This document shows positions 1-13,166 of a stretch of 34,262 nt of DNA, one piece after another. The notes beneath the pieces were generated by a model, which worked only from the letters and a program-made list of their open reading frames with translations, was not told the DNA's origin and ran no database searches. Position 1 is the stretch's first letter; every line of letters begins with the position of its first letter. Location of the stretch: NCBI RefSeq assembly GCF_913775425.1, contig NZ_CAJYIS010000075.1, positions 1-34,262 of the forward strand, read 5' to 3'. The translations under genes and the position numbers were made by a program. The stretch comes from an uncultured Enterococcus sp. (GTDB lineage: Bacteria > Bacillota > Bacilli > Lactobacillales > Enterococcaceae).

Positions 1-41
1 TAAAGTGTCTTCGGACCCAATTTTCTAGGAGGAATTTAATT

Positions 42-656
42 ATGTCAGTTTCACTAAAAGCAAGTAAAAGAGAAGTTCGCCCCCGTTCATTACGTAACCA
101 ATTACGTCACGAAGGTAAAGTACCTGCAATCGTAAATGGTTATAAAATCGAAAGTACACCAATCGCAGTTGATGCAAGTCAATTAGAAAAAGTATTACGC
201 GAAAATGGTGTGAATACTGTAATCACTTTAGATTTAGACGGTAAAAAAGTAAATACATTAATCCATAACTATACTTCAGATACCTTCAAAGGTAACTTAA
301 CTCACGTTGAGTTCTTATCTGTAAACATGAAAGAAGTAACAGAAGTTGAAGCCGAAGTTGTTGTTGTCGGTGAAGCTGTCGGCGTGAAAGAAGGCGGCGT
401 GTTAACTCAAACATTATACAACGTAACCGTTGCAGCAACTCCAGATAACTTACCAGAACGCGTAGAAATCGACGTAACAGACCTTAAGATCGGCGATGCG
501 TACACAGTAGCTGACCTTAAAGCAGACGGTGACTACGAAATCACTTCAGATAAAGAAGAACAAGTTGTTTCAGTAACTGAACCTCAAGTAGAAGAAGAAA
601 CTGAAGAAACAACTGAAGCTGCTGAACCAGAAGTAATCGGCGAAGACGCAGAATAA
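42..656 (+). CDS. rplY: 50S ribosomal protein L25, CTC/TL5 type
   Basis: 204 aa. L25/CTC protein binds 5S rRNA in the large ribosomal subunit; the long CTC form is also called a general stress protein. The N-terminal L25 domain (about residues 1-95) begins with a basic stretch containing VRPRSLRNQLR and is followed by the beta-rich TL5 C-terminal domain (about 100-180, with LPERVEIDVTDLKIGD). A very acidic Glu/Thr-rich tail (about 183-204) ends the protein, as in other Lactobacillales. The ATG at 42 is chosen because TAGGAGG lies 7-8 bases upstream. It appears monocistronic: an intrinsic terminator follows within 30 bases. Its promoter lies before the window. Identification is secure by length and domain order. 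Confidence 0.96.
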   Translation: MSVSLKASKREVRPRSLRNQLRHEGKVPAIVNGYKIESTPIAVDASQLEKVLRENGVNTVITLDLDGKKVNTLIHNYTSDTFKGNLTHVEFLSVNMKEVTEVEAEVVVVGEAVGVKEGGVLTQTLYNVTVAATPDNLPERVEIDVTDLKIGDAYTVADLKADGDYEITSDKEEQVVSVTEPQVEEETEETTEAAEPEVIGEDAE

Positions 657-684
657 TTAAAGAATCGCAATAGCTAGAATAACC

Positions 685-726
685 AACCCCCGCAACTAGT
701 CAAAAACTATTTGCGGGGGTTTTTTG
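685..726 (+). terminator. Rho-independent terminator of rplY
   Basis: AACCCCCGCAA (685-695) pairs with TTGCGGGGGTT (711-721); a short inner complement (ACTAGT/ACTA) extends the stem. It is followed by a run of T to 725. Confidence 0.93.
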
Positions 727-768
727 ATCTTTCAAAATTCGCATTTTTTTTCGCGATTTTGAAAGATC
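726..768. repeat. Second long inverted repeat before the Mga-like gene
   Basis: A 17-base left arm starting GATCTTTCAAAATTCGC (726-742) is complementary to GCGATTTTGAAAGATC (753-768) with one unpaired base and a T-rich loop. It directly follows the rplY terminator but has no T-run after it on either strand, so it is not a standard terminator. It could be a leader hairpin or operator for the gene that starts at 822. Confidence 0.6.
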
Positions 769-821
769 AAATTAAATATATAATGTTATATTTAATAAAA
801 AAGGAAAGGAAGCGTTTTTTT

Positions 822-1682
822 ATGATTGAATATTTATTGACGACTACTGAAAAAAAACGTTTAAATCTTTGGGTCACTCGACTTGCTTTAACTGATATTG
901 AACAAGATGAAGCTTTATCTTCTTATTTAATAGAACTACGCTATTTATTACAACCTAAAGGAATCTTCCAATTGTTAAAACATTTAGCTTATTATCCAAT
1001 CACCGACCTGAAACTAATTTGTCAAAAGTTGTCTATTAGTTCGTCTACTGCACGTCGTTATCTATATGCACTAAAAAATTATCTTCACACCTACACCATT
1101 CAATTACATACAAAAGGTGCAATTTATTTAATCGGTGATGAACTACTGATCCGCTCCCTCCTACTCCCTTATTTCATATTAGATTCTATTGAAGAAAATA
1201 CTATAGTCACTCCTAGTGTCTTATTTAGCCAAATCAAATTATTCCAAATGATTCGTATCCGTTCTAATCGTTCTCTCCTTGATCGAAAAACACCAATTAG
1301 AAGAATCGACAGTTATCTATTTGTCAGTGAGCAAGGATTTAGTTACATGTGGGAACAACTTTTGGGCATTCGTGAAATCACGACTTTAGCTAACGAACTT
1401 CCTCAGAAGCATTCATTTACAGGCAACTATGCACTAGGTGTGCAAAATAAGTTACTTGTCTTTTTTCATCAACTAAACATCCTAGCTAATTGTTATTGCT
1501 TTGATCAAAAAGCGCAGCAATTCTATTCATTACTTATTAAACGCTACGAATATGCCTCTTACGTACTGCCTTTCAACCTAAAAGACCCGCTAGCTTTATT
1601 TGCACTCACTTGTTTCTTTGAACCGATTTACCCTAATTTGCTTTCTTTAGATACTTTCATTAAAAAACAAAAAACTAGCTAA
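822..1682 (+). CDS. Short Mga/RofA-like transcription regulator
   Basis: 286 aa from the ATG at 822, chosen because AAGGAAAGGA (801-810) sits about 11 bases upstream; an in-frame ATG at 783 lacks such a site. A helix-turn-helix is visible at about residues 65-90 (LKLICQKLSISSSTARRYLY), typical of the HTH_Mga domain that opens with a first winged helix. The middle (about 100-286) resembles the alpha-helical Mga/PRD-like region. Full Mga-family regulators are near 500 residues, so this is either a short family member or an N-terminal half that lost its second PRD-like and EIIB-like parts. The stop codon lies inside a perfect terminator, so the gene is neatly closed. Its target is unknown; the neighbouring DUF5648 gene is a candidate from position only. 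Confidence 0.75.
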   Translation: MIEYLLTTTEKKRLNLWVTRLALTDIEQDEALSSYLIELRYLLQPKGIFQLLKHLAYYPITDLKLICQKLSISSSTARRYLYALKNYLHTYTIQLHTKGAIYLIGDELLIRSLLLPYFILDSIEENTIVTPSVLFSQIKLFQMIRIRSNRSLLDRKTPIRRIDSYLFVSEQGFSYMWEQLLGIREITTLANELPQKHSFTGNYALGVQNKLLVFFHQLNILANCYCFDQKAQQFYSLLIKRYEYASYVLPFNLKDPLALFALTCFFEPIYPNLLSLDTFIKKQKTS

Positions 1683-1705
1683 TCGAGTACGATTAGCTAG
1701 TTTTT
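1675..1705 (+). terminator. Terminator of the Mga-like gene, overlapping its stop codon
   Basis: CTAGCTAATCG (1675-1685), loop AGTA, CGATTAGCTAG (1690-1700), then TTTTT. The TAA at 1680-1682 is inside the left arm. A-tracts and T-tracts flank both sides, so it may work in both directions. Confidence 0.9.
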
Positions 1706-1707
1706 CT

Positions 1708-1838
1708 TTAAATCAATCGATCTGGCATCATGATATTTAGAAATTCCATGACACCATTTTGTAAGTATAGATCTTGCTGGTCATTTAAGACTTTACTTGT
1801 CAAATGGGAGTCCATTACCTGATAAGCCATTTCTAAAC
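1708..1838 (-). pseudogene. Decayed remnant of the 3' end of an Old Yellow Enzyme-family gene
   Basis: On the minus strand, 1708-1784 aligns to the last 77 bases of the intact oxidoreductase gene (2695-2771) with only three mismatches, including its stop codon and C-terminal residues PDRLI. The match then resumes after a 39-base in-frame deletion, whose ends coincide with copies of TTGGTCAT or TGGTCAT in the intact gene. More diverged similarity covers 1785-1812 (to about 2811-2838). After a second deletion, 1813-1838 resembles 2948-2973. No start codon or reading frame of useful length remains. The rest of the former copy has been replaced by the region carrying the next gene's promoter. The end coordinate is approximate. 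Confidence 0.85.
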
Positions 1839-1845
1839 CGTTACA

Positions 1846-1862
1846 TAGTCATATTATGACTA
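1846..1862. promoter_or_regulatory. 17-bp perfect palindrome, candidate operator
   Basis: TAGTCAT-ATT-ATGACTA. It lies where the -35 region of the next gene's promoter would be, ending 7 bases before the extended -10 motif. No protein is identified as its ligand. Confidence 0.55.
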
Positions 1863-1869
1863 CACAAAA

Positions 1870-1878
1870 TGTTATAAT
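1870..1878 (+). promoter_or_regulatory. Extended -10 promoter of the first DUF5648 gene
   Basis: TGTTATAAT fits TGnTATAAT exactly, about 50 bases before the start codon. There is no good TTGACA-like -35 at the right distance; the palindrome at 1846-1862 occupies that place. Confidence 0.65.
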
Positions 1879-1929
1879 TTTTATTATTTTCTAAAATTAT
1901 TTTAAACACTAGATAAGGAGAAACATTAT

Positions 1930-2580
1930 ATGAAAAGACCAAAAAGGATGATGAGGAAAATGAGTACCTTTAAAAAAGGGCTATTTGGATTGATAACATT
2001 TATGGCAATGGGAATTGTGATGATCGTTTCAACTGTCACAGCTTATGCGGATGATTGGATAAATGTAGTCCGTATGTATAATCCGAATTCTGGTGAACAT
2101 TTCTACACAATGAGCACCAACGAACGAAATTCTTTATATCTGATTGGTTGGCACTACGAAGGCGTTTCATGGGCTGCACCTTCAACGGGTGATACGATTT
2201 ATCGTGTGTATAATCCTAATAATGGTGATCATCATTATACGATGTCATTAGGCGAGAAAGACCATTTAGTAAAAGTAGGATGGCGTTATGAAGGTACAGC
2301 TTGGAAAAGTGCCGATTCTAAGGGTACTCCGATTTATCGTGTGTATAATCCTAATGCAAAAGGCCCTGGTAGTCATTTGTATACAGCCGATGTAAATGAA
2401 AAGAATGTTCTATCGAAATCTGGTTGGAAGTATGAGGGGATTGCATGGTATGCAGCTGGATTACAAAGTGGAAACATTAGCCCATTACCAACAAAACCTG
2501 GAAATACCCAAGACGATGAAAATAAATCAGGTTTAGTTGGAACTATTCAAGATGGACTTGATTGGTCAAACCCCCATTAA
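1930..2580 (+). CDS. Secreted protein with three DUF5648 repeats
   Basis: 216 aa. ATG at 1930 with AAGGAG at 1915-1920. The N-terminus is a signal peptide: basic residues 1-17, hydrophobic core about 18-38, likely cleavage after AYA (residue 40). Three repeats follow at about 47-81, 91-125 and 136-173, each with the pattern YNPN-(S/N)G-(E/D)H-(F/H)YT, then GW-x-YEG-x-x-W. This is the DUF5648 signature, a repeat found in secreted and cell-wall proteins of Gram-positives. The function is not established; a role in binding wall or carbohydrate is inference. A 43-residue polar tail follows, with no LPXTG motif or membrane anchor, so the product is likely released. It is transcribed alone, between an extended -10 promoter and a strong terminator. 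A second family member lies at 3896-4702. Confidence 0.88.
   Translation: MKRPKRMMRKMSTFKKGLFGLITFMAMGIVMIVSTVTAYADDWINVVRMYNPNSGEHFYTMSTNERNSLYLIGWHYEGVSWAAPSTGDTIYRVYNPNNGDHHYTMSLGEKDHLVKVGWRYEGTAWKSADSKGTPIYRVYNPNAKGPGSHLYTADVNEKNVLSKSGWKYEGIAWYAAGLQSGNISPLPTKPGNTQDDENKSGLVGTIQDGLDWSNPH
2195..2355 (+). repeat. Exact 26-bp direct repeat within the DUF5648 coding region
   Basis: The 26 bases at 2195-2220 recur without change at 2330-2355, 135 bases (45 codons) apart, in the same frame. Each encodes the start of a repeat unit (IYRVYNPN). Identity at silent positions suggests recent unit duplication or gene conversion. Confidence 0.85.
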
Positions 2581-2590
2581 TAAGTATAAC

Positions 2591-2622
2591 GGAAGACGGT
2601 TTATGACCGTCTTCCTTTTTTT
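2591..2622 (+). terminator. Terminator of the first DUF5648 gene
   Basis: GGAAGACGGT (2591-2600), loop TTATG, ACCGTCTTCC (2606-2615), then seven T. Confidence 0.93.
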
Positions 2623-2640
2623 GTGTAAACACTGTAATAA

Positions 2641-2683
2641 CAAAAACAGCCTAAACTAATCATTTAAGATCAGCTTAGGCTGT
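2641..2683 (-). terminator. Terminator of the oxidoreductase gene
   Basis: On the minus strand ACAGCCTAA (from 2683) pairs with TTAGGCTGT (to 2646), with further imperfect pairing inside, followed by TTTTTG. Confidence 0.8.
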
Positions 2684-2694
2684 GTTTATGTTTA

Positions 2695-3798
2695 TTAAAT
2701 CAACCGATCTGGCATCATGATATTTAGAAATTCCATGACACCATTTTGTAAATATAGATCTTGTTGGTCATAACTTGAGATGGTTTGTTTGATCAAATCT
2801 TCTTGGTCATTTAAGACTTTATTTGGCCAATGTGGATCGATCAAGATCGCGCGCCCGATTGCGACTAGATCTGCTGAAGCTAGAACAGTTTGGGCATCGG
2901 CTTTGCTGTGGACTTCTCCGACACCGATCAATGGGACACGATGATCGATTGCTTGATAGACCATTTCTAACATCGTATGTTCTTGATGGTTTTCATCGAT
3001 CGATTTACGTTTATAATCAGATAACGAGATATGCAAGTAGTCGAGTTCTTTTTGTGCCAATTGATCCACTAAGAATAGTGTATCTTCAATGCTGATCCCT
3101 GGTTTTTCAAATTCTTCTGGCGAGAAGCGATAACCAACAATAAAGTTTTCAACTTGCTCTTCTTCTACTACTGACAGTACTTCATCGACTAATACGTCAA
3201 TAAAGTGGTAACGTTTTTCAAGTGTGCCGCCCCATGCATCATTGCGACGATTTGAATGCGGAGAGAAGAATTGTTGGATAATGTAGGTATTTGCTCCATG
3301 TAATTCCACGCCATCAAAACCAGCTTGGATCGCGCGTTTTGTGGCTGCTTTAAAGTTTTCGATCAAGGCTAAGATTTCTGCTTCGGTGATCTCACGTGGA
3401 GTTTCAGCATTTGGACGCTCTGCTGCTACAGCACTCGCTGAAATAGGTTGGGTACCACGTAATACACTAGAATCGGTCATACGACCAGCATGGAATAGTT
3501 GTAAAATTGCTTTCGTACCATTTTGTTGAATCGTATTGGCTAGTTTGGTTAGACCAGGAATATGTTTATCGTCACTTACTGCTAACTCACCTTCCCAACC
3601 CTTACCGTCATCTTGTACGTTCGCCGCAGCAGTGATCACTGCACCAACTTCACCTGAACGTAGTCCATAATAATTTAGTTCATCTGTCGTTACGACACCA
3701 TCGTAAAATGACATTTTCGTCGTCATCGGTGCCATGACAATTCTATTTTTTAATGTCACACCACGTTTGAACGTGATCGGATCATTTAATTTTGTCAT
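2695..3798 (-). CDS. NADH-dependent flavin oxidoreductase, Old Yellow Enzyme family (YqiG/YqjM-like)
   Basis: 367 aa. A soluble FMN-dependent ene-reductase-type TIM barrel that passes hydride from NAD(P)H to electron-poor alkenes or related substrates; the physiological substrate is unknown. Visible family features: the N-terminal strand with KNRIVMAPMTT (about 17-27), QLFHAGRM (100-107), the substrate-binding pair in VELHGAN (His167 and Asn170), the loop QQFFSPHSNRRND (175-187) with GG after it, and the FMN-phosphate site near VGEVHSKADAQ and AIGRAIL in the C-terminal third. Full length for the group. AAGGAG lies upstream of the ATG at 3798. It has its own terminator. A mutilated copy of its 3' end lies at 1708-1838. 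Confidence 0.92.
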   Translation of the reverse strand: MTKLNDPITFKRGVTLKNRIVMAPMTTKMSFYDGVVTTDELNYYGLRSGEVGAVITAAANVQDDGKGWEGELAVSDDKHIPGLTKLANTIQQNGTKAILQLFHAGRMTDSSVLRGTQPISASAVAAERPNAETPREITEAEILALIENFKAATKRAIQAGFDGVELHGANTYIIQQFFSPHSNRRNDAWGGTLEKRYHFIDVLVDEVLSVVEEEQVENFIVGYRFSPEEFEKPGISIEDTLFLVDQLAQKELDYLHISLSDYKRKSIDENHQEHTMLEMVYQAIDHRVPLIGVGEVHSKADAQTVLASADLVAIGRAILIDPHWPNKVLNDQEDLIKQTISSYDQQDLYLQNGVMEFLNIMMPDRLI

Positions 3799-3846
3799 GA
3801 AAACAAGCTCCTTTTATACTAATAGTTTATTTCACACCAAAAGAAT

Positions 3847-3875
3847 AGTATAAAATCTAAAATTACACAACTAAA
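3847..3875 (-). promoter_or_regulatory. Possible promoter of the oxidoreductase gene
   Basis: -10 TATACT (3852-3847) with a weak -35 TTTAGT (3875-3870), spacing 17. It lies in the 97-base gap after the second DUF5648 gene, where no terminator is visible, so read-through is also possible. Confidence 0.4.
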
Positions 3876-3895
3876 GTAACTTAAACAATTCAAAA

Positions 3896-4702
3896 TTAAA
3901 GTTCTAAAATATCTTCTATTGGAAGATTAAAATAATTTTCTACTGTGTCACGTGCCATCAACTTATAAGTATAGTTGTATTTACCATCTATAACTTGTAA
4001 AGATTTGCCATCTTTAGCTAATCTTAAATGAAATAAGTTTCCCTGATAATTTTGAGATGTAAGATTTAAATATCCATCCTCCTCGAAAACTCGAATATTT
4101 TGTAGCTTCCTTCTATATACTGCTTTAGTGTCGGTTTTGGATATCATCATATATTTGTCAATCGAAAAAATACCGTCAGAATTAGGTATCCCCCATAGTC
4201 CGACAAAGCCACTTACTGAGTATCCAACTTTCGTCGCATACCAACCAACTCCTTCATTTTTCCAGCCGGTACGTACTAAACTTGTTTGTTCTGCTTGATT
4301 GGTCGTATAATTATGGCTTCCAGCTTGAGCATTAGGATTGTATGCTCGATACAGAGGGACTGTCTTATTAACATCTGAGTACCAGCCAATTCCCTCGTAA
4401 CTCCAACCTTTAGATACTAAAAGATTTTTTTCATTACCATTCATTGTATAATGATGATCCCCTGAATTTCGATTGTATACGCGATACACAGGTTGTCCGC
4501 TGTCTGGTGCATCCCAACCTACTCCTTCATATAGCCAGCCTGCTTTTATTAAAACATTTTTTTCAACCATATTTTTAGTATAAAAATGTTCACCACTATT
4601 TGGATTGTACAAACGTTGCATTTCGGCTGCATTTGCTTTTGAAGCAAATCCAAACAATAAACTCATTCCTAAAACTGATCCCAACACCCAATTTTTCTTC
4701 AT
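3896..4702 (-). CDS. Secreted protein with three DUF5648 repeats and a C-terminal beta-rich domain
   Basis: 268 aa. Signal peptide 1-25, with cleavage likely after ANA (SKANA|AE). Three DUF5648 repeats lie at about 30-63, 73-107 and 117-154, with motifs LYNPNSGEHFYT, VYNRNSGDHHYT and AYNPNAQAGSHNYT, each ending in GW-x-(Y/N)EG-x-GW. Residues about 160-268 form a further domain absent from the paralogue at 1930, with a GLWGIP start and alternating hydrophobic strands. I do not recognise it; a lipocalin-like fold is only a guess. No sortase motif or membrane anchor is seen. GAGAGGG lies upstream of the ATG at 4702, behind an extended -10. Function unknown; secretion is well supported. Confidence 0.88.
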   Translation of the reverse strand: MKKNWVLGSVLGMSLLFGFASKANAAEMQRLYNPNSGEHFYTKNMVEKNVLIKAGWLYEGVGWDAPDSGQPVYRVYNRNSGDHHYTMNGNEKNLLVSKGWSYEGIGWYSDVNKTVPLYRAYNPNAQAGSHNYTTNQAEQTSLVRTGWKNEGVGWYATKVGYSVSGFVGLWGIPNSDGIFSIDKYMMISKTDTKAVYRRKLQNIRVFEEDGYLNLTSQNYQGNLFHLRLAKDGKSLQVIDGKYNYTYKLMARDTVENYFNLPIEDILEL

Positions 4703-4733
4703 TTTTTCATCCCTCTCATATTTAATTAAATTT

Positions 4734-4742
4734 ATTATATCA
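4734..4742 (-). promoter_or_regulatory. Extended -10 promoter of the second DUF5648 gene
   Basis: TGATATAAT on the minus strand matches TGnTATAAT. No clear -35 element is seen, the same arrangement as for the paralogue at 1930. Confidence 0.6.
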
Positions 4743-4769
4743 TCCTATATATCTACAATATTCATATCC

Positions 4770-4817
4770 AAAAAAAACTCCCACAACTCGTTTCCTATCC
4801 AAACGAATTGTGGGAGT
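4770..4817 (-). terminator. Terminator of the met operon
   Basis: ACTCCCACAA (from 4817) pairs with TTGTGGGAGT (to 4777), with additional pairing toward the loop, then a run of T on the minus strand. Confidence 0.92.
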
Positions 4818-4825
4818 GTGTTACC

Positions 4826-5674
4826 TTATTTTGAGTCAGCTGGGACGATTTTGATTGAGCCATTCCATTTGTCTTGTACGTATTTTTCTACGTCTTCAGA
4901 GTGTAAGGCTTCGATCAATTTTTTGATTTTATCTTCGTTTTCATCGCCTTTACGAACTGCAATGATATTTACGTATGGTGTGTTGTCTTTTTCTAATAAT
5001 ACAGCATCTTTAGCAGGAACTAAATCGATTCCTAATGCATAGTTAGCATTGATAGCAACTAGATCTGCTTCATCATTTTTATACGTTGCCGCAAGTAGTG
5101 AAGGATCGATATCATGTTTGAATTTCAAATCTTTAGGGTTTTCTGCGATATCATCAAATGTTGCCGTTTCTTTATCGACGCCATCTTTTAATTTGATCAA
5201 TTCATTGTCTTCTAAGATTGTCAAAATACGACCCCAATCAGATTCTGAATTTGACGTAATGATCGTTGCGCCATCTTTTAAGTCTTTAATATCTTTGATA
5301 CGTTGAGAATACAAGCCCATTGGCTCTAAATGAACGGCACCAGCATTAACCAAGTCAAACCCATTGTCTTTGTTGGCTTTATTTAAGTATGGGATGTGTT
5401 GAAAGTAGTTCGCTTCGATGTCACCTGCGGCCAAGGCCTTATTTGGTAAAACATAGTCATCAAAAATTTGGATCTGTAAATCGATTCCTTCTTTTTTCAA
5501 GATCGGTTTTGCTTGTTCTAAAATCTCTGCATGTGGTGTCGCTGAAGCTCCGACTTTTAATACTTTATCGTCACTGTTGCCCTTTGATGTGTCATCTGAG
5601 CTTGAATTCCCGCAAGCTGCTAACCCTACAACTGCTACTGCAATTGTCACGAAACCTAATAATTTTTTCTTCAT
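4826..5674 (-). CDS. metQ: Methionine ABC transporter substrate-binding lipoprotein
   Basis: 282 aa. Binds methionine (possibly also its oxide or D-form) outside the membrane and delivers it to MetP-MetN. Residues 1-21 form a lipoprotein signal peptide with the lipobox LAAC and lipid-bearing Cys21, followed by a Ser/Asp-rich linker. The rest is an NlpA-family domain, with VGASATPHAEILEQ near the start, YVLPNKALAAGDIEANYFQHIPYL (split by the family's usual aromatic-rich motif) and NANYALGIDLVPAKDA. It is the last gene of the met operon, 15 bases after metP, before a strong terminator. Expression should follow the upstream T-box leader. Confidence 0.95.
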   Translation of the reverse strand: MKKKLLGFVTIAVAVVGLAACGNSSSDDTSKGNSDDKVLKVGASATPHAEILEQAKPILKKEGIDLQIQIFDDYVLPNKALAAGDIEANYFQHIPYLNKANKDNGFDLVNAGAVHLEPMGLYSQRIKDIKDLKDGATIITSNSESDWGRILTILEDNELIKLKDGVDKETATFDDIAENPKDLKFKHDIDPSLLAATYKNDEADLVAINANYALGIDLVPAKDAVLLEKDNTPYVNIIAVRKGDENEDKIKKLIEALHSEDVEKYVQDKWNGSIKIVPADSK

Positions 5675-5689
5675 GTGTAATTCCCCCTA

Positions 5690-6376
5690 TTATCGTTTGT
5701 CTGTACGTTTTGTTAAATAATCTCCAATTGCTTGGATAATAAATACGATTACTAAAATCAAAGCTGTTGCGACCAAAGTAATTGTATAATTACTACGTTG
5801 ATACCCTTCTTGCCAAGCGACCGCTCCTAAACCACCGGCACCGACTGCTCCGGCAATTGCCGTGTAGCCGATCATCGTGATCGTGGTCACTGTCACACCA
5901 GAAATTAGTGAAGGTAAACTTTCTGGAATCAAGATCTTATAGATAATCTCACCATAGCTTGCCCCCATTGCCTCAGCTGCTTCTAATACTCCTGCATCGA
6001 CTTCACGAAATGAAATCTCGACTAGACGCGCATAAAACGGTGTCGCTGAAAGTACCAAAGCTGGAATCGCCGCTGTTGCACCTAAAAAGGTCCCGACTAA
6101 AATCGTGGTCACTGGAATCAACAGTACGATCAAAATCATAAATGGCGTTGAGCGAAAAATATTACTAATGATTGAAACGATCGTATAAATAAGTTTAGAT
6201 GACGTAGATGATTTGCGTCCTAATGTGTATAAGGCAAGCCCTAGAAGCAAACCTAAGATAACTACTAGAATAGTCGAAATGATCGTCATATAAAGCGTGT
6301 TGTATATGGACACACTCATCGTCGACCAATTGACTTTTTCAAAGTTGAAATACGTTTCGACAAATCCCTTATTCAT
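5690..6376 (-). CDS. metP: Methionine ABC transporter permease
   Basis: 228 aa (also called MetI). Integral membrane permease of the MetNPQ importer, with five predicted helices. The conserved cytoplasmic loop that docks on the ATPase is present: EAAEAMGASYGEIIYKILIP in the middle third, followed by GAVGAGGLGAVAW near the end. Its start overlaps the end of metN by 8 bases, which suggests translational coupling and matched amounts of the two subunits. Confidence 0.95.
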   Translation of the reverse strand: MNKGFVETYFNFEKVNWSTMSVSIYNTLYMTIISTILVVILGLLLGLALYTLGRKSSTSSKLIYTIVSIISNIFRSTPFMILIVLLIPVTTILVGTFLGATAAIPALVLSATPFYARLVEISFREVDAGVLEAAEAMGASYGEIIYKILIPESLPSLISGVTVTTITMIGYTAIAGAVGAGGLGAVAWQEGYQRSNYTITLVATALILVIVFIIQAIGDYLTKRTDKR

Positions 6377-10427: not shown

Positions 10428-11792
10428 TTATTTAGTTGGATTTTGTTTGTGTACACTCGTCGATTCTTCTTTATTTTTGATTGATGTCATATAAACGATC
10501 GTTCCTACTACAAACACCGCAACAATAATAAGTAATGCCATCATTTGGATATTTGTAAGAAGATACAATGAAATAATCAAGGCAATGATCGGAATCGTAT
10601 AGCCACCTTTTAATGAAAAACCATTATTTGGATATTGTTTAGTATGTTTAAATTTCATAACGGCTAAAATAGAAGGCACGTATTGAATAAACGATACGAT
10701 GACGATACAAGCAACTAAAAAGATATAGCTAAACGAAGTCATCACCATACTGATCAATGAAGATACGATCACTGCTACGATTGGTGCACCATATTTGTTT
10801 GTTTTTGCTAAAACGCTAGGCAATAAATGATGTTCATCGGCTAAAGAAGCTGCAAGGGTCGGTGTACTAAAAGATACTGCAAAGGCTACACCAAAAATCG
10901 ATACGATCATCCCAACGATGACGATCGAGTACGCCCATGATCCGACTGTTGATTGCATCGCTTGAGCGATCGGCAATGTGTATTCAGTGATTTTTGGTCC
11001 CAAGATCCCAATAGCGATCGCTTGGACTAAAACATAGATGATCGTCACACTAGACATCACTAAGATCAAGGCTTTCGGAATATTTTTTTCAGGATTATCC
11101 ATTTGTGCCGCTGCCACTGGAATAAATGAAAAACCAGTAAACATATAAAAGACGACACTAAATCCTGCACCAAAATCTTTCATTACGTCGCTTGCATTCT
11201 TTGCACTTGTGGGGATGAATGGTGAAAAATAATGTGTATGCACAAAGAACACACCAATAACTAAAAAGAAAACTAATGTAATGATTTTAAATGCTGAAGA
11301 GATATTATCGACCCACTTCACCATACCTGTTCCAAAATAATTGATAATTGCCAAAATAATAATCAAGCCAATAGGAAATACCACTTCGATCACACTATTT
11401 TTCATCGCGGGTACGATCGGTTTTAAGGTACGCAATAACGCTACGACTTCAGCTGAGAGCGTCAGACAACCTAAAAACCAAGAGAACAATCCGATTTGAA
11501 ACCCTGTAAATTTTCCAAAAGCATTGTACGAATACAGCCATGCTGCTCCTGATCCTGAAAAACGACTCGATAAATCAGCATAACATAATGCAACCATACT
11601 CACAGTGATCGCCGCCATCAATAAGACAAAGATACTCATTACGCCGCTATCTTTATAGATTTGTTGTGGAAGCAAAAATGCTCCAGAACCGACAATTGCA
11701 TTGATCCCTAAAAAATAGATCGAGAAAAAGCTAAGTTTTTTTTGTGGCTGTTTCTTCGACACAAGCGATGTTTGGATTTCTCCAGCTGCCAT
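10428..11792 (-). CDS. APC-superfamily amino acid/polyamine permease (second copy)
   Basis: 454 aa, about 12 membrane helices. The N-terminal motif FLGINAIVGSGAFLLPQQIY matches the glycine-rich TM1 substrate-binding stretch of APC transporters. FYMFTGFSFIPVAAAQMDNPEKNIPKAL is the TM6-loop region, and SDEHHLLP-like ADEHHLLP with TNKYGAPIVAVIVSS follows. Closest in style to amino acid/polyamine antiporters or uniporters (AdiC/PotE/YjeM-like); the substrate cannot be read from the sequence. It lies 12 bases after a clear paralogue of nearly the same length and shares its key motifs, so the pair arose by tandem duplication. It is the last gene of the operon that starts with the C26 hydrolase. Confidence 0.88.
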   Translation of the reverse strand: MAAGEIQTSLVSKKQPQKKLSFFSIYFLGINAIVGSGAFLLPQQIYKDSGVMSIFVLLMAAITVSMVALCYADLSSRFSGSGAAWLYSYNAFGKFTGFQIGLFSWFLGCLTLSAEVVALLRTLKPIVPAMKNSVIEVVFPIGLIIILAIINYFGTGMVKWVDNISSAFKIITLVFFLVIGVFFVHTHYFSPFIPTSAKNASDVMKDFGAGFSVVFYMFTGFSFIPVAAAQMDNPEKNIPKALILVMSSVTIIYVLVQAIAIGILGPKITEYTLPIAQAMQSTVGSWAYSIVIVGMIVSIFGVAFAVSFSTPTLAASLADEHHLLPSVLAKTNKYGAPIVAVIVSSLISMVMTSFSYIFLVACIVIVSFIQYVPSILAVMKFKHTKQYPNNGFSLKGGYTIPIIALIISLYLLTNIQMMALLIIVAVFVVGTIVYMTSIKNKEESTSVHKQNPTK

Positions 11793-11804
11793 GATGCATT
11801 CCTC

Positions 11805-13166
11805 CTATTCTTTTTTCGTACTAACTGGACTGACTGCGTTATGATCAAATCGAGCTTCTGCTAGGTAAATGATCACGCCGACAACAAAAACACTCACTGC
11901 AACTAAAATCACTTTAAAGTTAAATCCTACTAATAAATACATTGAACCAATCAACGCTAAAATCGGAATCGTATAGCCTCCTGGCAAATGGAATCCTTGT
12001 GTTGGGAATTCCTTATTGTTGTGAAATTTCATTGTTGCTAAAATCGTTGGAATGTATTGCACGAAATTCGCACATACCATACACGTTGCTAAAAAGACAT
12101 AGCTACCAGTCAACAGTAAGAGTGAACTGATCACGACCGTCAATAAAATCGAAATATACGGCGCATCGTAACGATTGGTTTTTCCAAAGAATTTAGGCAA
12201 TAAATGGTGCTCATCAGACAATGATGACGCGATGATCGGAACATCAAATGAAGAAGCAAAAGCTACACCAAACGTTGAAATCGTACTACCAGCAATGATG
12301 ACATAATACCCCCAACTACCTAACATATGGCGCATGGCTTCAGCTACGGGAATCGTCGTTTTCGCTAATCCTGAGCCCAATACTCCAATAGCTAAAGCTT
12401 GAACAACTACATAGATCGTCATAACAGATAACATGATTGTAACCAACGCTTTTGGCAGATTTTTCTGAGGATTATTCATTTTACGCGCTGCGATCGGTAA
12501 AAATGAGAATCCCGTAAACATGTAAAAGACAACACTATACGTATTACTAACGCTCTTAAATAAGCCACTTGAAGAATCCATACGTTCTGGAACCAATGGC
12601 GAAAAATTGCTGAATTTCAAGAAAAAGACACCTACGATAATAAATAATACAACTGTAAGTAACTTCAAACCAGAAGAAAGATTGCTAACAAATTTCACTG
12701 AATTGACACCAAATAAATTAATAATACCTAAAAGGACAATAAAACCAATTCCAAACCCGAGCGAAATCCATTGATTGGCTAAACTTGGAATCATATTTTT
12801 AAAAATACGAATCAAAGCAGCAATCTCAGCGGAAATCGAAACGACTCCGGCAAACCACATGAAAAAGCCGACTTCAAATCCGACAAATTTTCCATAAGCA
12901 TGATAGGAATACAGCCATGCTCCCCCTGACTCAGAGAAACGGCCAGATAAATCAGCGTAACATAGCGCAATCAACAACGTCGAGATCCCCGCAGCAATAA
13001 TACAAACGAGTCCCCACATGACACCTGCATCTTGATAGATTTGTTGTGGGAGTAAAAATGTTCCCGAACCAATGATTCCGTTGATTCCTAAAAGAAAAAT
13101 CGAGAAAAACGATAATTTTTTCATTGAACTGACTGCCTGTTTGGCAGTAGGTTTTGCTTGTGCCAT
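11805..13166 (-). CDS. APC-superfamily amino acid/polyamine permease (first copy)
   Basis: 453 aa, about 12 membrane helices. Shares with its neighbour LLGINGIIGSGTFLLPQQIY near the start, LSGRFSESGGAWLYSYHAYGK, the TM6-loop segment FYMFTGFSFLPIAARKMNNPQKN, and SDEHHLLPKFFGKTNRYDAPY. The two are clearly homologous along the whole length but diverged at many positions, consistent with different substrates or affinities. It follows the C26 hydrolase by 15 bases. Co-transcription with an enzyme that cleaves gamma-glutamyl amides suggests uptake or exchange of a glutamate- or polyamine-related compound; this is inference from gene order. Confidence 0.88.
   Translation of the reverse strand: MAQAKPTAKQAVSSMKKLSFFSIFLLGINGIIGSGTFLLPQQIYQDAGVMWGLVCIIAAGISTLLIALCYADLSGRFSESGGAWLYSYHAYGKFVGFEVGFFMWFAGVVSISAEIAALIRIFKNMIPSLANQWISLGFGIGFIVLLGIINLFGVNSVKFVSNLSSGLKLLTVVLFIIVGVFFLKFSNFSPLVPERMDSSSGLFKSVSNTYSVVFYMFTGFSFLPIAARKMNNPQKNLPKALVTIMLSVMTIYVVVQALAIGVLGSGLAKTTIPVAEAMRHMLGSWGYYVIIAGSTISTFGVAFASSFDVPIIASSLSDEHHLLPKFFGKTNRYDAPYISILLTVVISSLLLLTGSYVFLATCMVCANFVQYIPTILATMKFHNNKEFPTQGFHLPGGYTIPILALIGSMYLLVGFNFKVILVAVSVFVVGVIIYLAEARFDHNAVSPVSTKKE

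Follow-up and report, generated by a model that had tools for sequence, protein, structure and literature searches.

A decayed copy of an oxidoreductase 3′-end beside a DUF5648 gene: a probable partial-duplication scar in Enterococcus

Gene content of the locus

The stretch of DNA analysed here (the window, 34,262 nt) comes from an uncultured Enterococcus sp.; the nearest named relative seen was Enterococcus sulfureus ATCC 49903 (genome G002; the genome of the window is G000). Between a gene for a Mga-family regulator and an intact gene for an NADH:flavin oxidoreductase of the Old Yellow Enzyme type (OYE) the window contains a short remnant of the OYE 3′-end and a DUF5648 gene; a second DUF5648 gene follows (Table 1). 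The intact OYE shows 95% identity to OYE of E. sulfureus, and the first DUF5648 gene shows 82–84% identity to its orthologue; the Mga-like gene has 67% identity to that of E. sulfureus and 28% to that of another congener (G001). By eye, the first DUF5648 protein has a signal-peptide-like N-terminal start.

The hairpin between the Mga-like gene and the remnant has a folding energy of −22.2 kcal/mol (z −7.5); a hairpin of other sequence was seen by eye in the equivalent position of E. sulfureus. None of six weak matches to RNA families at 600–4900 reached the gathering score.

Table 1. Features of the locus (window coordinates; codons numbered from 0)
Feature	Position	Strand	Basis or remark
Mga-family helix-turn-helix regulator, left neighbour	822..1682	+	Pfam PF05043, E 5.2e-9
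Hairpin terminator between Mga-like gene and remnant	1669..1706	scan scored minus strand	17-pair stem
Remnant of OYE 3′-end, 43 codons, frame open	1708..1836	-	Alignment to intact OYE
Near-identical section of remnant	1708..1784	-	3/77 mismatches versus intact OYE
Perfect dyad TAGTCATATTATGACTA adjoining remnant, −35 region of likely DUF5648 promoter	1846..1862	.	Identical in E. sulfureus
Extended −10 (TGnTATAAT), fixed distance from dyad	1870..1878	+	Same dyad-to-hexamer spacing at other sites
First DUF5648 gene, 216 aa	1930..2580	+	PF18885, E 5.4e-52
Terminator of first DUF5648 gene	2591..2615	+	Terminator scan
Terminator of intact OYE gene	2646..2683	-	16-pair stem
Intact NADH:flavin oxidoreductase (OYE), parent of remnant	2695..3798	-	PF00724, E 4.9e-77
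OYE section once covered by stranded copy, codon 276 to stop	2695..2970	-	Outer boundary common to both remnants
Second DUF5648 gene, not grouped with first	3896..4702	-	Tree

Direct repeat and decayed gene end

When the 34 kb window was compared with itself on the same strand, two direct repeats were listed at E ≤ 1e-6. One of them relates 1708–1784 to 2695–2771, 77 nt on the same strand with 74 identical positions (96%) and three mismatches; its E-value of 1.7e-29 rules out chance similarity. An earlier note on this DNA, made from the letters alone, had claimed a 77-base repeat in the same orientation with three differences and the DUF5648 gene in between; this is what we found, and the alignment, which the note had proposed to check, is far above chance.

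Homology of the remnant to its parent extends over the 77 nt and two further pieces. As a whole, the remnant corresponds to OYE codons 276–283, 320–330 and 344–367. The pieces are separated by two deletions, one of 36 codons (108 nt) and one of 39 nt, in agreement with the note, which had described an in-frame deletion of 39 bases bounded by short repeats as well as a second deletion. The 39-nt deletion is flanked in the parent by near-identical repeats around TCTT(G/C)TTGGTCAT, with a single copy left in the remnant. By eye, both deletions lie between short repeats of the parent sequence, as expected for slippage.

Comparison with E. sulfureus and other genomes

Gene order in E. sulfureus (L25, Mga-like gene, remnant, DUF5648, OYE, DUF5648, MetQ) is the same as in the window. 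As this genome was sequenced separately, an assembly artefact is ruled out; the structure is known from two genomes, one per species.

The E. sulfureus remnant has 31 codons and a single deletion of 183 nt, with both start and end different from those of the deletions in the window. On the other hand, the outer ends of the two remnants are the same: both run from the OYE stop codon to codon 276, where a few bases separate them from the same dyad, and all parent codons before 276 are missing in both species. Also, a change of C to T at the third base of codon 279 is common to both remnants and present in neither OYE gene. The shared outer boundaries and the codon 279 change, combined with different internal deletions, indicate that a single truncated OYE copy most likely predates the split of the window species and E. 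sulfureus and was shortened separately later. Judged by the common boundary, the stranded copy originally had about 276 nt, not 77 nt.

The idea put forward in the note, that a duplication placed the DUF5648 gene between two OYE 3′-ends and that one of them decayed, is supported. The OYE ends do flank the DUF5648 gene and one is decayed, with the same boundaries and different deletions in E. sulfureus; the duplication would be the event behind this arrangement. Among the genomes compared there was no relative carrying the remnant without a neighbouring oxidoreductase gene. The note's further suggestion, loss of the DUF5648 gene by recombination between the repeats, gained no support: both repeat-bearing genomes keep the gene, and the congener that has no DUF5648 gene also has no OYE.

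This congener, G001, is the third genome of the genus; it has L25, a distant Mga-like gene and MetQ, the latter two ∼270 bases apart, and nothing in the genome matches the window OYE or DUF5648 at E ≤ 0.001. In a collection of species with 49 OYE loci, the OYE 3′-end repeat was present at one locus, that of E. sulfureus, which was also the only one to have L25, DUF5648, MetQ and MetI as neighbours in common with the window; other MetN matches at OYE loci were ABC ATPases with 25–43% identity. The Mga-like gene was compared against 30 L25 loci (of 53 L25 matches); it was found in the three genus genomes and at a fourth locus at 23%.

Four enterococci (L048 7255–7701, L053 7300–7702, L056 7300–7701 and L063 2346–2750) have a direct repeat of another kind immediately downstream of OYE; it is ∼130–180 nt long with a spacing of ∼268 nt.

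Near-identity of the terminal 77 nt

The two parts of the window remnant differ in their distance from the intact OYE gene: in ungapped pieces, 3 of 77 nt are mismatched in the terminal part versus 11 of 53 nt elsewhere (Fisher P = 0.003). When changes in the window remnant were counted by hand, the upstream part had 9 in 57 nt and the terminal part a single one in 72 nt (P = 0.005). Codon 353, furthermore, is GTC in both copies of the window and GTA in both copies of E. sulfureus. Both the uneven distribution of changes and the likeness of codon 353 within species are explained by conversion from the adjacent OYE gene; judging from these sequence patterns, the terminal 77 nt of the window remnant were probably overwritten later by the intact gene. 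Codons 348 and 364 of the remnant match OYE of E. sulfureus and differ from OYE of its own genome; therefore, the conversion, if any, came before these OYE changes.

Conversion could also be argued from age. Synonymous divergence between the window species and E. sulfureus could be estimated for all but one (the Mga-like gene) of the nine genes measured and ranges from 0.3 to 1.6 per site. A neutral copy older than the split, by synonymous and fourfold sites, is expected to show more than 3 differences in 77 nt (binomial P ≤ 0.002 at divergence of at least 15%, P = 0.04 at 10%). This argument is weak, as the nearby promoter region also changes slowly (58 of 67 positions identical between the two species). 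The E. sulfureus remnant has no two-part contrast (8 changes in 48 nt versus 4 in 45 nt, P = 0.36), and the terminal 42 nt kept by both remnants have 0 changes in the window versus 4 in E. sulfureus (P = 0.12). Conversion is not proven, nor is it required by the data.

Origin of the arrangement

We consider it likely that the arrangement is a scar of partial duplication: a DUF5648 gene would have been inserted at OYE, and the stranded OYE end would have decayed separately in the two species, with no present function needed. In the common ancestor the Mga-like gene presumably faced the OYE gene across a shared terminator. Recombination would then have brought in the DUF5648 gene, together with its promoter, on the downstream side of OYE, giving the arrangement now seen; the final ∼276 nt of OYE would have been duplicated in this event, with one copy part of the intact gene and the other stranded next to the Mga-like gene. 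Either a single crossover or a homology-assisted insertion could give this layout in one step; at the junctions, OYE homology is found on one side of the DUF5648 insert. Subsequently the stranded copy lost internal pieces between short repeats, with the different outcomes observed in the two species, and gene conversion from the intact gene probably renewed the final 77 nt of the copy in the lineage of the window.

The same final map could be produced by tandem duplication of a unit composed of DUF5648 and the OYE 3′-end, if the left DUF5648 copy was then deleted. The left flanks of the remnant and of OYE do not resemble each other, as a deletion beside the remnant would predict; however, two events are needed, and a repeat search in 1–6000 found no piece of the first DUF5648 gene to the left of the remnant. 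We regard such an origin as conceivable but rather unlikely; an insertion anchored in the OYE end is preferred because it is simpler.

On the preferred reading, the locus is a partial-duplication scar of an ordinary kind, with a small coding puzzle. As such it makes a clear small example of how a metabolic gene gains an accessory neighbour, and two species suffice to read the order of events.

Open reading frame of the remnant

The puzzle is that all three deletions (108, 39 and 183 nt) are multiples of three and that a stop codon is present in neither remnant, leaving the frame open in both species. One could speculate that the remnant was retained as a small gene whose product is a peptide corresponding to the C-terminus of OYE. 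The number of replacement changes is indeed low, 11 of 22, versus 16–18 expected in neutral simulation (P = 0.001–0.019 depending on the mutation model), which hints at a sequence more like a coding one than a dead one. This signal comes mostly from E. sulfureus (P = 0.004–0.023 alone; 0.09–0.26 for the window remnant alone); moreover, the test was picked after the data had been seen, and conversion too would reduce replacement changes.

As for the open frame, the chance of no stop in either remnant is 0.34–0.45. Direct repeats of at least 5 nt in this OYE section are in phase in 29 of 52 cases in the window and in 25 of 49 cases in E. sulfureus; with repeats mostly in phase, in-frame deletions should be frequent, and three of them are less striking than a chance of one in three for each would make them. 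No Shine-Dalgarno sequence was seen by eye before any start candidate of the remnant, the promoter scan gave no minus-strand promoter-like site within or just upstream of it, and the start is not common to both species (the candidate ATG at codon 278 of the window remnant is ATA in E. sulfureus). Retention as a small gene is, in our judgement, quite improbable. If translated, the remnant would be an example of a peptide gene born from the tail of an enzyme; such a peptide might perhaps bind the full enzyme at a subunit contact.

Promoter and relatives of the DUF5648 gene

The distance from the end of the dyad to the −10 hexamer (extended TGn) is 10 nt in both species; the extended −10 in E. 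sulfureus is TGnTATACT. There is no −35 match at this promoter, hence it is absent from the plain promoter scan. The dyad with this fixed spacing, at up to two mismatches, has four occurrences in the window genome and four in E. sulfureus (reverse readings excluded). The one match in G001 falls inside the gene for a distant relative (30%) of the dyad-linked Mga-family regulator of E. sulfureus, and the reversed control pattern with spacing had no match in the three genus genomes. Of 58 family genomes searched, 2 contain exact dyads, with two copies apiece, and the control gave no exact match. Counts for the dyad alone at two mismatches per strand (5, 1 and 2 in G000, G001 and G002, versus 1, 2 and 2 for the control) are less telling. 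From these sequence features it looks as if the inserted DUF5648 gene arrived with, or acquired, a seemingly regulated promoter directly beside the remnant.

The sites with the dyad AnTCATAnTATGAnT and fixed spacing to the −10 hexamer (window 1846–1878; L193, L195 and L197 in the window genome; L192, L194, L196 and L198 in E. sulfureus) form a small candidate regulon. Genes behind the dyad include the first DUF5648 gene, another DUF5648 gene of E. sulfureus, a lipoprotein-like gene and the gene for the Mga-family regulator, which may regulate its own gene; the window-genome orthologue of this regulator (74% identity) has a degenerate dyad only. In both species, a dyad promoter was also seen by eye behind the second CpsD-like kinase gene, with a terminator-like hairpin directly after it, an arrangement that would suit a short RNA of ∼55 nt (L137 5043–5110 in contig C77 of the window genome; L136 about 4190–4271 in E. 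sulfureus).

DUF5648 has been described in one paper as a putative binding domain of enterococcal endolysins, and in another glycan recognition was proposed. The domain occurs at 13 places in the window genome and 18 in E. sulfureus, with no match in G001. The idea that the first DUF5648 gene arose recently by copying of the second gained no support: in a tree with 16 of 27 inner branches open, each clusters with its own orthologue and no branch unites the pair. Twenty-seven matches (31 less 4) lie outside the locus; 21 of them, in 18 loci, some with short flanks at contig ends, were examined for spanning repeats. Two pairs were within paralogues (L139) and one 45-nt pair had its members 6.3 kb apart (L142). 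A DUF5648 mobile cassette that always duplicates its target is not supported by the other DUF5648 loci examined.

Among 72,556 plasmid records, 341 contain relatives of the DUF5648 protein, with Enterococcus accounting for 316; among 50,697 phage records, 9 do. Identity is <60% in each case. Mobile DNA thus carries members of the family in other settings, in keeping with acquisition by insertion, but none of these matches shows the source of the inserted gene.

Site-specific elements typically show the 3′-end of a gene copied at the far end of the insert. The layout would fit a small DUF5648-carrying element integrated at the OYE 3′-end, with the repeats as copies of its attachment site, and the mobile-DNA matches point the same way; however, such an element is most improbable here since a search for phage integrases gave no match at the locus (the 3 matches in the window genome and the 7 in E. 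sulfureus are all elsewhere), there is no ORF of at least 80 aa besides DUF5648 between the repeats, and no evident flanking copies of neighbour genes were present at 21 of the 27 other DUF5648 matches, the 45-nt pair aside.

Relation to known systems

In Vibrio T6SS effector arrays, homology-facilitated illegitimate recombination was reported to displace 3′-ends of genes (PMC5361080). Similarly to the insertion proposed for the OYE locus, a new gene is inserted there and the 3′ part of the old gene is stranded downstream, with the event inferred in both cases; however, the arrays described in that report involve effector and immunity genes in many strains, whereas here it is one metabolic gene end in two genomes.

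Merodiploids of Streptococcus pneumoniae carry transformation-driven tandem duplications bordered by repeats (PMC3784515). As at the OYE locus, the segment is bordered by direct repeats able to recombine; the merodiploids of that report are large, recent and laboratory-made, whereas the OYE/DUF5648 segment is ∼1 kb, old and decayed.

Flanking direct repeats have also been reported for 10–18% of small variable segments (PMC2884548). The likeness is in a short gene segment situated between direct repeats; the repeats given in that source are mostly <30 bp and come from strains within one species, unlike the repeat of 77 nt seen here in a locus common to two species.

Other observations in the window

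Two adjacent stretches of ∼1.2 kb, 10563–11740 and 11937–13121, are 65% alike and perhaps represent a tandem gene pair. Positions 1–127 of the window recur in reversed orientation at one end of contig C18 of the same genome (G000:C18:1-127), pointing to an overlap between these contigs at the beginning of the L25 gene.
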